A stretch of DNA of 39,610 bases from a bacterium. Lineage in GTDB: Bacteria > Patescibacteriota > Minisyncoccia > UBA6257 > Colwellbacteraceae. The stretch covers positions 103,063-142,672 of the forward strand of contig JAJYME010000004.1 in assembly GCA_021787205.1 (NCBI GenBank), read 5' to 3'. Made by a program: the position numbers and the translations under genes. A model generated the notes under the pieces. That model was not told where the DNA came from. It made no database searches and was given only the letters and a program-made list of their open reading frames with translations. Of the stretch, positions 3,051-39,597 are shown piece after piece (position 1 is the stretch's first letter; each line of letters begins with the position of its first letter).

Positions 3051-3737
3051 ATGTTCGTACAAAATTGGACTGGAGCTGTCGGAAGCGTTTGGGGCTATAT
3101 CGTCCCGGCTTTGATCCAGCTTCTGGGGGCGATAATCCTTCTTTTCATCGGTCTCATTGTCGCAAGGTTGATTGAAACAGCCTTGAAGAAGATAATCACT
3201 TTTTCTAGAATCGATGTTTTATTGAGAAAAGTCGGATTGGAGAAATTCCTCCAGAGAGCCGAGGTCTCCTTGAATGCGGCGGAGTTTATCAGCAGAATCG
3301 TCTACTGGTTTATCGTCCTCGTGACGGTAATCGCGGTATCCGACTTCTTCGGATTCACCACTCTTTCCACATTCATCTGGAGCGTTATCAATTGGGTCTT
3401 CACCGATGTCTTGGCGATGGTAGCGATCTTGCTTGTGGCGGTTATCGCCGCCCAGGCAGTAAAGAAGCTTATCACTGCCTCGATCAAGGGAACCAAATTG
3501 CATTCTGCGAGATTTATCGGTTCTGTTGCCTGGTGGGCGATAATGCTTTTCGGAGCAGAAATGGCTCTGAGACAATTCGGAGTCGATACTTCCTTCTTGA
3601 CCTCTTCCATCCAGATAATCTTTGGTGGAATGATCCTCGCTTTGTCCATTGCTATCGGCCTTGCTTTCGGGCTTGGCGGCAAGGAAAAAGCATCCGAAGT
3701 CGTTAAGAAATTCGACGACTACGTAAACCAGAAATAG
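3051..3737 (+). CDS. Conserved TM-helix repeat (MscS-like) membrane protein
   Basis: Multiple hydrophobic helices, LGAIILLFIGLIVARLIE and LALSIAIGLAFGLGGKEKASE, typical of the MscS TM-helix family. Confidence 0.8.
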   Translation: MFVQNWTGAVGSVWGYIVPALIQLLGAIILLFIGLIVARLIETALKKIITFSRIDVLLRKVGLEKFLQRAEVSLNAAEFISRIVYWFIVLVTVIAVSDFFGFTTLSTFIWSVINWVFTDVLAMVAILLVAVIAAQAVKKLITASIKGTKLHSARFIGSVAWWAIMLFGAEMALRQFGVDTSFLTSSIQIIFGGMILALSIAIGLAFGLGGKEKASEVVKKFDDYVNQK

Positions 3738-3993: not shown

Positions 3994-7012
<3,019 letters not shown>

Positions 7013-18050: not shown

Positions 18051-19406
18051 ATGAAACACAAAAGCATTGGAGCTTTTACTCTTATTGAGCTCTTGATTGT
18101 CATTGCCATCATTGCAATTTTAGGTTCTGCAACCGTCTTAGTTCTTAATCCTCTGGAACTCATGAGACAAGGAAGGGATGGAATAAGGGTATCAGACATC
18201 AAAGTGATGGAAAAAGCCATCGGACTTTATCAGATGGACAATCAGATCTCAGCGACTTCAAACAAAGTTTATGTCTCCATTCCAGACACTTCAGCGACCT
18301 GCGCCAATATTGCGGGCCTTCCTCCGCTTCCGACGGGTTGGACTTACAATTGTGTCACTGATGCAAATAAAAACAAAATAGACGGCACCGGCTGGATTCC
18401 TATTAATTTCACTTTAACTAAGGGCGGAACTCCTCTGGCATCTCTTCCGATTGACTCGATAAACACCTCCTCTTCGGAATATTATTCATTTGTCTCTTCG
18501 GGAAATTCTTGGAAGATAGCCTCCGTTCCCGAATCAGTGAAACTTTCAAGTTTCAAATATACTTCGACAAATGACGCCTCATTGGCCCAAGGCATTTTTC
18601 CTTCAGGTTGGATAAGGACTCCGGACGGATTTCTCGTAATGCAATATGAGGCCAAGTATGACAAAAATGGAGACGGAAGGGGAGATACGGCGTCCGCCGC
18701 TTCATGTCCGGCCTCCGTCGGACTCGGCCTCTCGTGGGCCGGCGCAGGCTGTTCTACGGCGACAAATATAGTATCGACTCCGGACGGGGCGCCGATAGTC
18801 GAGATAACCCACGACCAGGCAAAAGCCGCCTGTGTCTCAATCGGATCACATCTTATCACTAATGACGAATGGATGAAGATCGTAAGAAATGCTGAACAAC
18901 AATCCCAAAACTGGACAACAGGCATAGTTGGCTCGGGTTGTCTTTTTACCGGAAATACGGGGGATGGCACCTGCGGTTATGACGGAACTGATCCTGAATA
19001 TGGATCTTCCCGCAATCAAAGGGCTATGCTTTCTCTATCAAATGGCGTAAAAGTTTACGATTTTTCGGGAAACGTTTGGGAACACGTCCAAAAGGATTCT
19101 TCGGATACCTTAGTTTTAAACCAACCGACTGACGGCGGAGCTGTCGGCTGGAGATGGATAGAGCACACAGGCATAACTTCGTATGGAAATCTTTCCTATA
19201 ACGAAATTCGGCCTTCAGTCTCTTCTTGGAACGCCACCCAGGGAATGGGAAGGGTCTATACCTATAATGGTTCTGACGGATTAAGCCATGTTCTTCTTCG
19301 CGGCGGCTATTGGGTCACTGGGTCTTACGCCGGCGCTTTCGCACTGTCCTTGGGTTGGGTTCCGTCCTCTTCGAACTACAATGTGGGGTTCCGTTGCGCG
19401 CGGTAA
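18051..19406 (+). CDS. DGR target protein: prepilin-like N-terminus plus FGE-sulfatase/C-type-lectin-like C-terminal domain with variable repeat
   Basis: N-terminus MKHKSIGAFTLIELLIVIAIIAILG. C-terminal domain VYDFSGNVWEHV ... VLLRGGYWVTGSYAGAFALSLGWVPSSSNYNVGFRCAR. The VR lies at the extreme C-terminus. Confidence 0.93.
   Translation: MKHKSIGAFTLIELLIVIAIIAILGSATVLVLNPLELMRQGRDGIRVSDIKVMEKAIGLYQMDNQISATSNKVYVSIPDTSATCANIAGLPPLPTGWTYNCVTDANKNKIDGTGWIPINFTLTKGGTPLASLPIDSINTSSSEYYSFVSSGNSWKIASVPESVKLSSFKYTSTNDASLAQGIFPSGWIRTPDGFLVMQYEAKYDKNGDGRGDTASAASCPASVGLGLSWAGAGCSTATNIVSTPDGAPIVEITHDQAKAACVSIGSHLITNDEWMKIVRNAEQQSQNWTTGIVGSGCLFTGNTGDGTCGYDGTDPEYGSSRNQRAMLSLSNGVKVYDFSGNVWEHVQKDSSDTLVLNQPTDGGAVGWRWIEHTGITSYGNLSYNEIRPSVSSWNATQGMGRVYTYNGSDGLSHVLLRGGYWVTGSYAGAFALSLGWVPSSSNYNVGFRCAR
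19290..19400 (+). repeat. DGR variable repeat (VR)
   Basis: 111 nt aligned without gaps to TR 19906-20016. 13 differences, each at a TR adenine. Confidence 0.97.
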
Positions 19407-19442
19407 TTGCCTCCGTAGATATCCGCAATCCATAATTTCTTA

Positions 19443-19476
19443 AGTTATCCCTTCGTAATTTTGCGAAGGGATAACT
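19443..19476 (+). other. 13-bp perfect hairpin downstream of VR (candidate target-site hairpin)
   Basis: AGTTATCCCTTCG-taattttg-CGAAGGGATAACT. No T-tract follows. Confidence 0.7.
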
Positions 19477-19495
19477 ACAATAATAAAAAATAAAA

Positions 19496-19831
19496 ATGCT
19501 TGACGATTTGGTTATTTTTCAAAAAACGTATGATTTTTTACTTTGGATAAATCCCGCAATAAACAAATTTCCTAAAAACCAGAAATTCGTTCTGGGACAA
19601 AAAACTGAATTGAAAATATTGGAATTGATGCATTCGATGATCCTGGCAAACAGCGCATCAGAAAAGTCGGAGCATATGAAGCAAGCAAGCGTAGAATTGG
19701 ATGAGTTGAGGGTATTGATTCGCCTTGCGAAGGATTTGCATTACATCAGCATAAAAAAATACGAGGCAGCGGCGGAGAAGATGAATGAAATCGGGCGATT
19801 GTTGACCGGTTGGATGAACAGATTTATATGA
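19496..19831 (+). CDS. avd: DGR accessory variability determinant (Avd-like four-helix protein)
   Basis: 111 aa, YDFLLWINPAINKFPKNQKFVLGQKTELKILELM...ASVELDELRVLIRLAKDLHYISIKKYEAAAEKMNEIGRLLTGWM. Avd-type sequence placed between VR and TR. Confidence 0.92.
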   Translation: MLDDLVIFQKTYDFLLWINPAINKFPKNQKFVLGQKTELKILELMHSMILANSASEKSEHMKQASVELDELRVLIRLAKDLHYISIKKYEAAAEKMNEIGRLLTGWMNRFI

Positions 19832-19905
19832 TTTGCATCGTTCCTGCAGAGGACGGATATGTTAATTATATAACGGTTTCTGCAGGGATGACGGCAAAAA
19901 CAATG

Positions 19906-20016
19906 GATCTTCTTCGCGGCGGCAATTGGGACAATGGGTCTAACGCCGGCGCTTTCACACTGAACTTGAATTGGGTTCCGTCCAATTCGAACAACAATGT
20001 GGGGTTCCGTTGCGCG
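19906..20016 (+). repeat. DGR template repeat (TR)
   Basis: Adenine-bearing copy of VR, rich in AAC/AAT codons (LLRGGNWDNGSNAGAFTLNLNWVPSNSNNNVGFRCA). Confidence 0.97.
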
Positions 20017-20262
20017 GTAAAGCAGATAAATACGGCCTGAAGCAAAAATCTAAGGATTTTGCGTATGTAAATAATTACGCGCGGCGCCAGGGGAAAGTAC
20101 AAGAGTTAAGACAGCCCAGGAATGCCAGGCTCTGAGCCAAAAGACAATTACGGCTATCATTCCTTCTTTATCGGTTTTTCGATGAGGAAAATATGACCTT
20201 TAATCGAAGTCATTGTTTATCTCTGATTTTTGATTTTGTCCAAAAAACAAAAAAGGTTAATC

Positions 20263-20286
20263 AGGACTGCTATGCAGTCCTTTTTT
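20263..20286 (+). terminator. Terminator/attenuator just before the RT start codon
   Basis: AGGACTGC-tat-GCAGTCCT then T-tract. RT ATG at 20291. Confidence 0.8.
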
Positions 20287-20290
20287 ATAT

Positions 20291-21350
20291 ATGTCAAAAC
20301 TATTCAGCGAAATAACGGATTTTACAAATATCCACAAGGCGTATGTTGATGCCAGGCGAAATAAGAGATTCCGCCTCGGCATTTTGGAATACGGTTGCAA
20401 CCTAGAGAAGAATCTTTTATCAATAAAAAGGGATATGAAGAACAGAACTTATGTTCATGGGGGCTATAGAGAATTCATAATCACCGATTCAAAAAAAAGG
20501 ACCATAAATGCGGCTCCTTTCCGAGATAGGGTTGTCCATCATATGATCTGCAATATAATCGAGCCGATACTTGACAGGACCTTTATTTATGACTCGTATG
20601 CTTGCCGTAAGGGAAAGGGAACACATAGGGCTTTCAAGAAATTGGAAAAAAATTTACGCTCTATAAAAGCGAAAATTCCAGAGAGAGAGAGAGCTTAATT
20701 GTAAAATTTATGTCTTGAAGTGTGATATATCAAAGTTCTTTGATAATATCGACCACAATATCCTTATTGGATTGTTAAAAGAGAAAATTGGCGACAAAGA
20801 TACTATGTGGCTGATTGAAAAGATAATCAGGAGTCATGAACGCAAGGAGGGCGTAGGAATACCGATCGGAAATCTTACAAGCCAATTGTTTGCAAATGTT
20901 TATTTAAACAAACTTGACCATTATATAAAAAGGGTCTTAAAAGAAAGATATTATATCCGTTACATGGATGATTTTATCATATTAGGCACAGATAAAAGAA
21001 AATTATTTTCGGTTAAAGAAAAAATAAGAGATTTTTTGAATATTGAATTAAAACTTACGCTTCATCCTAAAAAATCGGAAATATTTCCGGCGGACAACGG
21101 CATCGATTTTCTTGGATATGTATTGAAAAACAATAAAAGGTTTTTGAGAAAGTCAACCGTAAAGAGATTTCTAAAAAGAAGAAAAAAAGCAAGACTGGAG
21201 GAATCAGCAGGAATGATCGCTTCTTTTACCGGATATGCGAAATTTGCGGATTCCTGGGAGTTGAGAAAAAGATTAAAATTTTTTGCAGGGTTGTCAAATA
21301 CTCCAAAAAAGGACATAATTGCCATTACAGCAAGTCGCAAACATAAATAA
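20291..21350 (+). CDS. DGR reverse transcriptase, frame interrupted at (AG)7 (20680-20693); possible phase-variable gene
   Basis: ORF1 20291-20698 (PFRDRVVHHMICNIIEPILDRTFIYDSYACRKGKGTHRAFKKL) and a second frame through 21350 (KIYVLKCDISKFFDNIDH, IPIGNLTSQLFANVYLNKLDHYIK, YYIRYMDDFIILG). IGNLTSQ is the DGR-type motif 4 and YMDD the catalytic motif. Confidence 0.93.
20680..20693 (+). repeat. (AG)7 dinucleotide simple sequence repeat in the RT gene
   Basis: CC-AGAGAGAGAGAGAG-CTTAATTG, exactly where the RT frame breaks. Confidence 0.97.
21292..21320 (+). promoter_or_regulatory. Putative lysS promoter inside the RT 3' end
   Basis: TTGTCA, 17-nt spacer, CATAAT. Confidence 0.45.
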
Positions 21351-37905: not shown

Positions 37906-39597
37906 ATGAATAATAATTTTTTTTCGGTTGATGTTTTGTATGGGGATAATTTATTTCAACATACTCAAAGACAATTAATTCCCTCACTTCAAAGACAATA
38001 TACGTGGGATAAAAAGAGTGTTAATAAGTTATGGGGGGACATTATAGAAAACAATAGTCCATATTTTGTTGGGACTATAGTTCTTATTTCTGGAGAGGGT
38101 TCTTCATCTCGTGATGAAGTGATTGATGGTCAGCAAAGATTAACTACAATTTCTTTAATTCTTATTGCACTACGCGATCTGATTAAAGAGAAATATGGAG
38201 AAGAACATCCGTATCTAGGAGAAATTCGCAAATTACTATTAGTGCCTCAATTTATTGGAGATCCAAGCCCAACTCTTGAGTTTTTTGATAAGTCATCTAA
38301 TGATGTGTATAAAACGATCCTCTTTGGTAGGGGTGAATTTTCTAAACCTAAAATAAAATCTCAGACAAATAGGTTCTTTGATAATTATTTTGAAATTAGG
38401 AAATTAATAGAAAAGACAGTTGGTGAAGGAGTAGAAGTGAGTGATATATTTAATAAAATAAAATCATTAGAGATGGTTATTACAAAATGTGCAACATACT
38501 CATTAGGATATAAATTATTTGAAGGACTTAATGCAACAGCTGTACAACTTGTTAGTACCGATCTTATAAAAAACTCTCTTTTTATGAAATTAAGAGAAGA
38601 TTCTATTTTACTAGAAGAGGCTCAGAATAAATGGATTGAATTAGAATCAAAATTTGAAGGCAGTCGTTTTTTAAGGGATTTTGTTAGGCATCAGTGGTTA
38701 AGTACTATCGGGTATGTTAATCAATCAAACTTATTTGAAGCTTTTCAAAAAATATATATTAAAAATTCAGATAAGAATAATACATACAGATATATTGAAA
38801 CATTGTTGGATGATGCTGACTTATATTTAGCTTTAAGAAATGCAAGAATTGATAATCTTAATAACCTACCATGTATTAGGAATGATCGTAAAGAGATAAG
38901 AGCTCTGTTGGAGTTTATTAATTTTTTAAATATCGATCAGATTTATCCGGTTATTATGTATATTTATAAAAATAAACCTGATAATTTTAAAAAATATTTA
39001 GTTAGATTGGCATCTTTTCAGTTCTTGTTTAAATATCTTCCAGGGAGTCCGAGTATTGTTGAAAAAATCTACGCTCAATTTTGTAAAGGTGGTATGGATA
39101 TAAATGGGCTCTCAAATGAATTGAAAAAATTATGTAGTGATAGACAAGAGTTTATTGAATCATTTTTAGATAAGATAAAATACAAAGAGGGAAAAAGTGG
39201 TGATGTTCAATTTATATTACAAAAACTAATCAATAATAAACAGCCAGAAATAGAATATATAAATCCGACAATAGAACATATTATTCCTAGAGAGCCGGAA
39301 GGAGAATATAAAAAACTATTAGAGTCTCAGTTTAAAAAGTATAAGACCTTAAAATATGAACTAGATAAAATAGGTAATCTAACTATTCTAGATAAAAAAT
39401 CTAATGGTAGTATAGAGAATACTCCGTTTGTAGATAAAAAGGGTATGTATGAGAGTAGTGGTTTTGTTGTTAATCAGGAAATAAATAGATATGATTTTGA
39501 GAATGATCCTCAGGATGCAATAAAAAAGAGAGGGAGAGATATTTCCACAGAAATATACGATATCTTTCTTAGTGCTCTTAATTCAGGAAAATTTTAA
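37906..39597 (+). CDS. DUF262 + DUF1524 (HNH) protein, GmrSD-like type IV restriction / defence candidate
   Basis: N-terminal IPSLQRQYTWDKKSVNKLWGDI...FVGTIVL...EVIDGQQRLTTISLI. C-terminal NPTIEHIIPREPEGE...IGNLTILDKKSNGSIENTPF. Confidence 0.9.
   Translation: MNNNFFSVDVLYGDNLFQHTQRQLIPSLQRQYTWDKKSVNKLWGDIIENNSPYFVGTIVLISGEGSSSRDEVIDGQQRLTTISLILIALRDLIKEKYGEEHPYLGEIRKLLLVPQFIGDPSPTLEFFDKSSNDVYKTILFGRGEFSKPKIKSQTNRFFDNYFEIRKLIEKTVGEGVEVSDIFNKIKSLEMVITKCATYSLGYKLFEGLNATAVQLVSTDLIKNSLFMKLREDSILLEEAQNKWIELESKFEGSRFLRDFVRHQWLSTIGYVNQSNLFEAFQKIYIKNSDKNNTYRYIETLLDDADLYLALRNARIDNLNNLPCIRNDRKEIRALLEFINFLNIDQIYPVIMYIYKNKPDNFKKYLVRLASFQFLFKYLPGSPSIVEKIYAQFCKGGMDINGLSNELKKLCSDRQEFIESFLDKIKYKEGKSGDVQFILQKLINNKQPEIEYINPTIEHIIPREPEGEYKKLLESQFKKYKTLKYELDKIGNLTILDKKSNGSIENTPFVDKKGMYESSGFVVNQEINRYDFENDPQDAIKKRGRDISTEIYDIFLSALNSGKF

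Follow-up and report, generated by a model that had tools for sequence, protein, structure and literature searches.

A dinucleotide tract as a probable phase-variation switch in the reverse transcriptase gene of a Patescibacteria diversity-generating retroelement

The window, by which we mean the whole stretch of 39,610 nucleotides that was analysed (G000:C3:103063-142672), comes from a source genome of 616 kb that is 96% complete. Positions 18051-21350 hold a complete diversity-generating retroelement (DGR), in which target gene, variable region, avd, template repeat and reverse transcriptase (RT) all lie on the same strand:

18051..19406, + strand: DGR target gene (Pfam N_methyl, E 2e-5; FGE-sulfatase, E 2e-9; IV_pilin_GFxxxE)
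19290..19400, + strand: variable region (VR), 111-bp pair with the TR
19496..19831, + strand: avd accessory gene, intact (Pfam bAvd, E 2e-27; NCBIfam DivGenRetAVD, E 4e-32)
19906..20016, + strand: template repeat (TR), 111-bp pair with the VR
20291..20698, + strand: RT N-terminal part, 135 aa, ending in PERERA and a stop (group II-like RT match)
20680..20693, + strand: (AG)7 tract, proposed phase-variation switch (from the repeat and its recurrence in relatives; loop position from a homologue model)
20694..21350, + strand: RT C-terminal part, in the +1 frame relative to the N part (RVT_1, E 2e-18; PDB 8ub7, E 2e-32)

The target joins a type IV prepilin-type N-terminus (N_methyl) to an FGE-sulfatase/C-type-lectin-like domain at its C-terminal end, where the VR is located; the C-type-lectin/FGE fold is assigned via the Pfam FGE-sulfatase domain. 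Over 111 bp the TR and VR differ at 13 positions, and all 13 are template adenines. Alignment of the RT C half revealed the catalytic D of motif 3, the YMDD box and the IGNLTSQ motif, and its best match among solved structures is the Bordetella phage DGR RT (8ub7, E 2e-32). Once both RT halves are read together, the catalytic motifs of DGR/group II-like RTs are present. By all sequence features tested the element is a DGR, and from the TR/VR pattern we infer past mutagenic retrohoming in this cassette. Elsewhere in the window, at 37906-39597, lies a gene for a GmrSD-type restriction endonuclease.

The element resembles the DGR of Bordetella phage BPP-1 in its RT (8ub7 being the best PDB match), its Avd, its adenine-only TR/VR changes and its C-type-lectin-like target, but differs in that the target is a prepilin-like cellular protein. 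It also shares a cellular location and an Avd with the DGRs of Patescibacteria placed in DGR clade 2 by Roux et al. 2021 (PMC8144416), and it probably belongs to this clade. In the passages of that paper that were searched, neither frameshifts nor repeat tracts are spoken of.

The preliminary description of this DNA had placed a single frame change, splitting the RT into two ORFs, inside a perfect (AG)7 repeat at 20680-20693. These coordinates proved exact, with the N ORF at 20291-20698 and the C half at 20694-21350 in the +1 frame. Recomputed translations agree with the earlier figures of 353 aa for eight AG units and 351 aa for five, and neither RT half has a stop within its aligned core, in keeping with the claim that no other lesion is visible. 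Read together, the halves also bear the catalytic motifs that had been expected of a joined RT (RVT_1, the 8ub7 match, YMDD and IGNLTSQ). The RT frame is set by the number of AG repeats, each of which is two nucleotides long and so shifts the frame. Chance does not account for the tract, since none of 100 dinucleotide shuffles of the window contained an (AG)7, and it is the sole AG run of at least six units in the 616-kb genome. A TRF scan omitted it, the tract being too short for the TRF score. The same genome has three poly-G tracts of 8-10 (C1:17807, C7:94971 and C11:41905), with the G8 run lying within an in-frame DNA-methylase-like ORF.

Relatives, at approximately 55-68% identity, were gathered by a homology search with the RT C half alone, i.e. 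blind to the tract. All sequences compared are metagenome assemblies, and the recorded taxonomy of the relatives is Wolfebacteria, Colwellbacteria and other Parcubacteria; in IMG/VR a close relative was not found, the best match having 50% identity. At the same RT loop (loop 1), tracts of (AG)7-27 occur in 13 independent loci, the window included, down to approximately 55-60% protein identity. All 13 are out of frame, with an offset of +1 in eight and of +2 in five. Relatives without the tract have the RT in frame, and so does L006, in which the tract has degenerated through interrupting substitutions. In a second loop, which lies between motif 3 and the GIPIGNLTSQ motif, a distinct RT clade (support 95/89) has tracts of (AG)11-35; its four AG loci are likewise all out of frame, each with offset 1. 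Overall, the RT-internal AG tracts are out of frame in the assemblies in 17 of 17 cases (p 0.001 vs two thirds expected). G9-G12 tracts at the same RT sites are in frame in four cases and out of frame in four. Among the G-tract loci, L124 and L127 are weaker cases owing to additional table-11 stops. The RTs of these two loci (G184, G185) have internal TGA codons, which perhaps stand for an amino acid in their genomes. At these sites the RT strand invariably carries the G or AG version of the tract, and in no case C or CT.

Tract length varies also within a frame class, the tracts of L337 and L338 being 18 units apart in length and of the same class. The L161/L167 pair was unusable for an allele comparison, as its contig begins within the tract. 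Contigs terminate in or beside an AG tract at G073:C4, G015:C30, G219:C10 and G225:C9, which is expected if lengths vary or if the repeat confuses assembly. Beside the tract, in the same RT loop, short inverted-repeat insertions are present in L096 and L020. The RT of L072 is a mosaic, with an N half nearer to L097, a C half nearer to L099 and the break close to the tract.

Other tracts lie just upstream of the RT. A reading of these as N-terminal leaders of the RT was rejected, for the opposite strand shows the leader of a divergent avd overlapping the RT start: the tracts sit in the leader of a divergently running avd (bAvd matches) whose start overlaps that of the RT. This arrangement was seen in L384, L130, L350 and L146 and in approximately 65 poly-G loci. 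In all 71 loci with an avd ORF, the avd strand offers a candidate ATG no more than 75 nt ahead of the tract and open to it, and the candidate leader is in frame with the avd core in 13 and out of frame in 58 of them (n=71; p 0.004 vs one third). In a system reconstituted in E. coli, DGR activity was abolished by loss of the RT or of Avd (PMC12875486), and therefore either gene could serve as a switch.

Of the 116 distinct RT loci that the homology-sampled set contains from the window's order, 68 have an AG or poly-G tract in the RT or the avd leader: 11 in loop 1, two in loop 2 and 55 immediately before the RT. Such tracts were likewise found in 14 of 18 loci at class level and in three of six at phylum level. 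No such tract was found in 112 RT loci from outside the Patescibacteria (64 viral and 48 other bacterial), unlike in the window. The Fisher p of 5e-32 for the contrast between order and non-Patescibacteria is an overstatement, because related loci are not independent and some assignments of unnamed bins to Patescibacteria are our own. In 43 genomes of the order, 19 of the 66 AG tracts of at least seven units lie in or beside DGR RTs vs approximately 0.06 expected, and in 80 genomes 13 of the 49 tracts of at least ten Gs lie beside RTs by their coordinates. Judged from these sequences, the AG and G tracts appear to form a contingency system that is general in these bacteria and includes the DGRs.

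The out-of-frame RTs do not have the appearance of dead genes. Their dN/dS is 0.05-0.18 for the N half and the C half alike (purifying selection), and the aligned cores of RTs with an AG tract are free of stops. In 12 cassettes with an out-of-frame RT, 169 of 174 TR/VR mismatches fall at TR adenines; the scoring of the TR/VR finder favours adenine mismatches, but the near absence of other mismatches over approximately 110 bp is still plain. These adenine-focused mismatches suggest that the DGRs worked recently. Near-identical alleles came up once, in L168 and L169, which share 99.9% identity along 4015 bp and differ by one substitution and one indel. The indel consists of two Gs in the RT tract (G11 vs G9), which puts one RT out of frame and leaves the other in frame. 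This pair should be interpreted with some caution, since the two loci are assigned to different genera and may be one population binned twice, and since the tract of this poly-G relative is a homopolymer, in which the difference could be a sequencing error. The preliminary description had asked about further RT lesions in relatives: relatives were found without such lesions, and in this near-identical pair tract length and frame differ, in poly-G rather than AG. Its reading of the site as a contingency locus gained support from the AG and G tracts of the relatives, which occupy two RT loops with varied length and frame in genes that appear otherwise intact and under selection, within DGRs that seem to have been active recently.

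The RT gene bears the sequence hallmarks of a simple sequence repeat (SSR) contingency gene, namely a tract, frame dependence, conserved position and variable repeat number. It shares with the SSR contingency loci of Neisseria, Haemophilus, Campylobacter and Helicobacter a mono- or dinucleotide tract in a coding region, a frame-dependent on/off state and a recurring position in surface and modification genes, but the gene switched here would be a mutagenic diversity generator. We consider it highly probable, on the grounds of sequence comparison, that the (AG)7 tract makes the window DGR phase-variable through changes in repeat length. AG units would be gained or lost by slipped-strand mispairing at replication. 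One frame class of three would fuse both halves of the RT to a full-length protein of approximately 350 aa (ON); in the other two, translation would stop just after the tract and leave a truncated RT without the catalytic core (OFF), which is the predicted state of the present assembly. Mutagenic retrohoming of the prepilin-like target would then take place in ON cells, while OFF cells would keep and propagate a fixed variant. Populations would switch reversibly, and activity would depend on frame.

The structural setting is compatible with a variable linker. A homologue with an in-frame G12 was modelled (mean pLDDT 88.5), and its tract residues fall in a turn between helix 108-122 and strand 130-136, the strand that bears the first catalytic Asp, and the tract loop is among the most length-variable segments of the RT alignment. 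Both repeats are stop-free linkers in every frame, poly-G coding for Gly and AG for Arg-Glu, and consequently most in-frame lengths should be tolerated in the case of AG. Seven units are short compared with the 8-35 found in relatives, so that switching may be slow in the window organism.

The finding that 17 of 17 AG alleles are OFF requires either that the OFF state be favoured or that the RT be obtained in another way. OFF is also commoner than expected among the consensus alleles overall (79 of 96; p 5e-4), which means that OFF has an advantage or that OFF alleles yield RT through slippage in expression. In the latter case, transcriptional or ribosomal slippage on the repeat would yield some full-length RT from any allele, and the tract would set a low constant dose instead of being a genetic on/off switch. 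That the AG alleles are all out of frame, yet the TR/VR pairs show recent activity, fits this explanation, as do the good re-pairing of AG repeats after a shift of one unit, which could join either offset, and the shared offset 1 of the loop-2 loci. However, it leaves unexplained why lengths of 7-35 units fall in three frame classes and why poly-G loci are equally often in frame and out. Moreover, a fixed slippery heptamer or stimulatory element was not identified, and a long tract of AG or G cannot escape the tendency to slip at replication. We regard slippage in expression as unlikely on balance, albeit worth keeping in mind. Programmed frameshifting with a fixed shift was ruled out by the presence of both offsets among the loop-1 relatives.

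An error in the AG count, by a unit, in a gene that is intact in the cell would be conceivable for a single metagenome assembly with error-prone repeat tracts, the more so as several contigs end inside AG tracts. It is nevertheless very improbable here: reads can cross a dinucleotide tract of 14 bp without difficulty, the out-of-frame state is repeated in 13 loci from many genomes, and even with one wrong allele call the tract stays a conserved feature. The reading frame is indeed broken in the present assembly, as it would be in a dead RT undergoing simple decay, but the lesion is single and located in the tract, both halves are conserved with a dN/dS of 0.05-0.18 in relatives of the same state, the TR/VR differences in the window are purely at adenines and the position of the tract is kept across deep divergence. 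Decay into a pseudogene is contradicted by selection, stop counts and the TR/VR pattern, and we give it hardly any weight. Since both ORFs are open, they might also be produced as separate subunits of a split RT. The C frame of the window, however, has no start codon at its head before motif 3 (the first is TTG at 20715), the offsets differ between relatives and the RTs of the clade are as a rule in one piece, which makes a split RT the most far-fetched of these explanations.

Little is known about how DGRs are regulated, and a cell that mutates a useful binding protein all the time should pay for it. Patescibacteria are a huge uncultured lineage thought to depend on host-cell attachment. If phase variation by repeat length is true, a contingency tract in the RT or avd would give simple heritable control, with bursts of diversification confined to a few cells while the others keep a stable variant. 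Two classical diversity mechanisms would thereby be joined in one hierarchy, a hypermutable switch atop a hypermutation machine. DGRs annotated as broken, or missed through a split RT, may be working, and surveys may therefore undercount them. We think it likely that the DGRs of Patescibacteria are in general controlled by a layer of SSR phase variation, which evolved several times, in two loops of the RT and in the leader of avd, and is accompanied by AG tracts at the leaders of some prepilin-type targets, and that populations are mostly locked OFF while a minority of ON cells diversify. The preliminary description knew of no described phase-variable DGR RT, and no published phase-variable DGR was found in the literature searched; a 2025 review of phase variation (PMC11868660) mentions neither DGRs nor candidate phyla. 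A switch tract in a DGR RT or avd thus appears to be undescribed so far.

Many further AG tracts are found at the starts of secreted and surface proteins, including prepilins that resemble DGR targets. In L158 (15 units, minus strand 3493-3522) and L159 (nine units, minus strand 4211-4228), a second AG tract precedes the prepilin-like DGR target, approximately 18 nt from its ATG, and the expression of these targets may therefore be phase-variable as well. In L295, L296 and L305, AG tracts are situated directly ahead of the GFTLIE prepilin motif in large pilin-like proteins, and in L288, L303, L316, L318, L326, L333, L334 and L336 at the N-terminal leader of secreted or tail-fibre-like surface proteins. 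Tracts at the leaders of surface proteins possibly form a wider phase-variable repertoire in the order. A methyltransferase-like gene (L181) and a glycosyltransferase-like gene (L183), both named by reading of the sequence, are each split by an AG tract.
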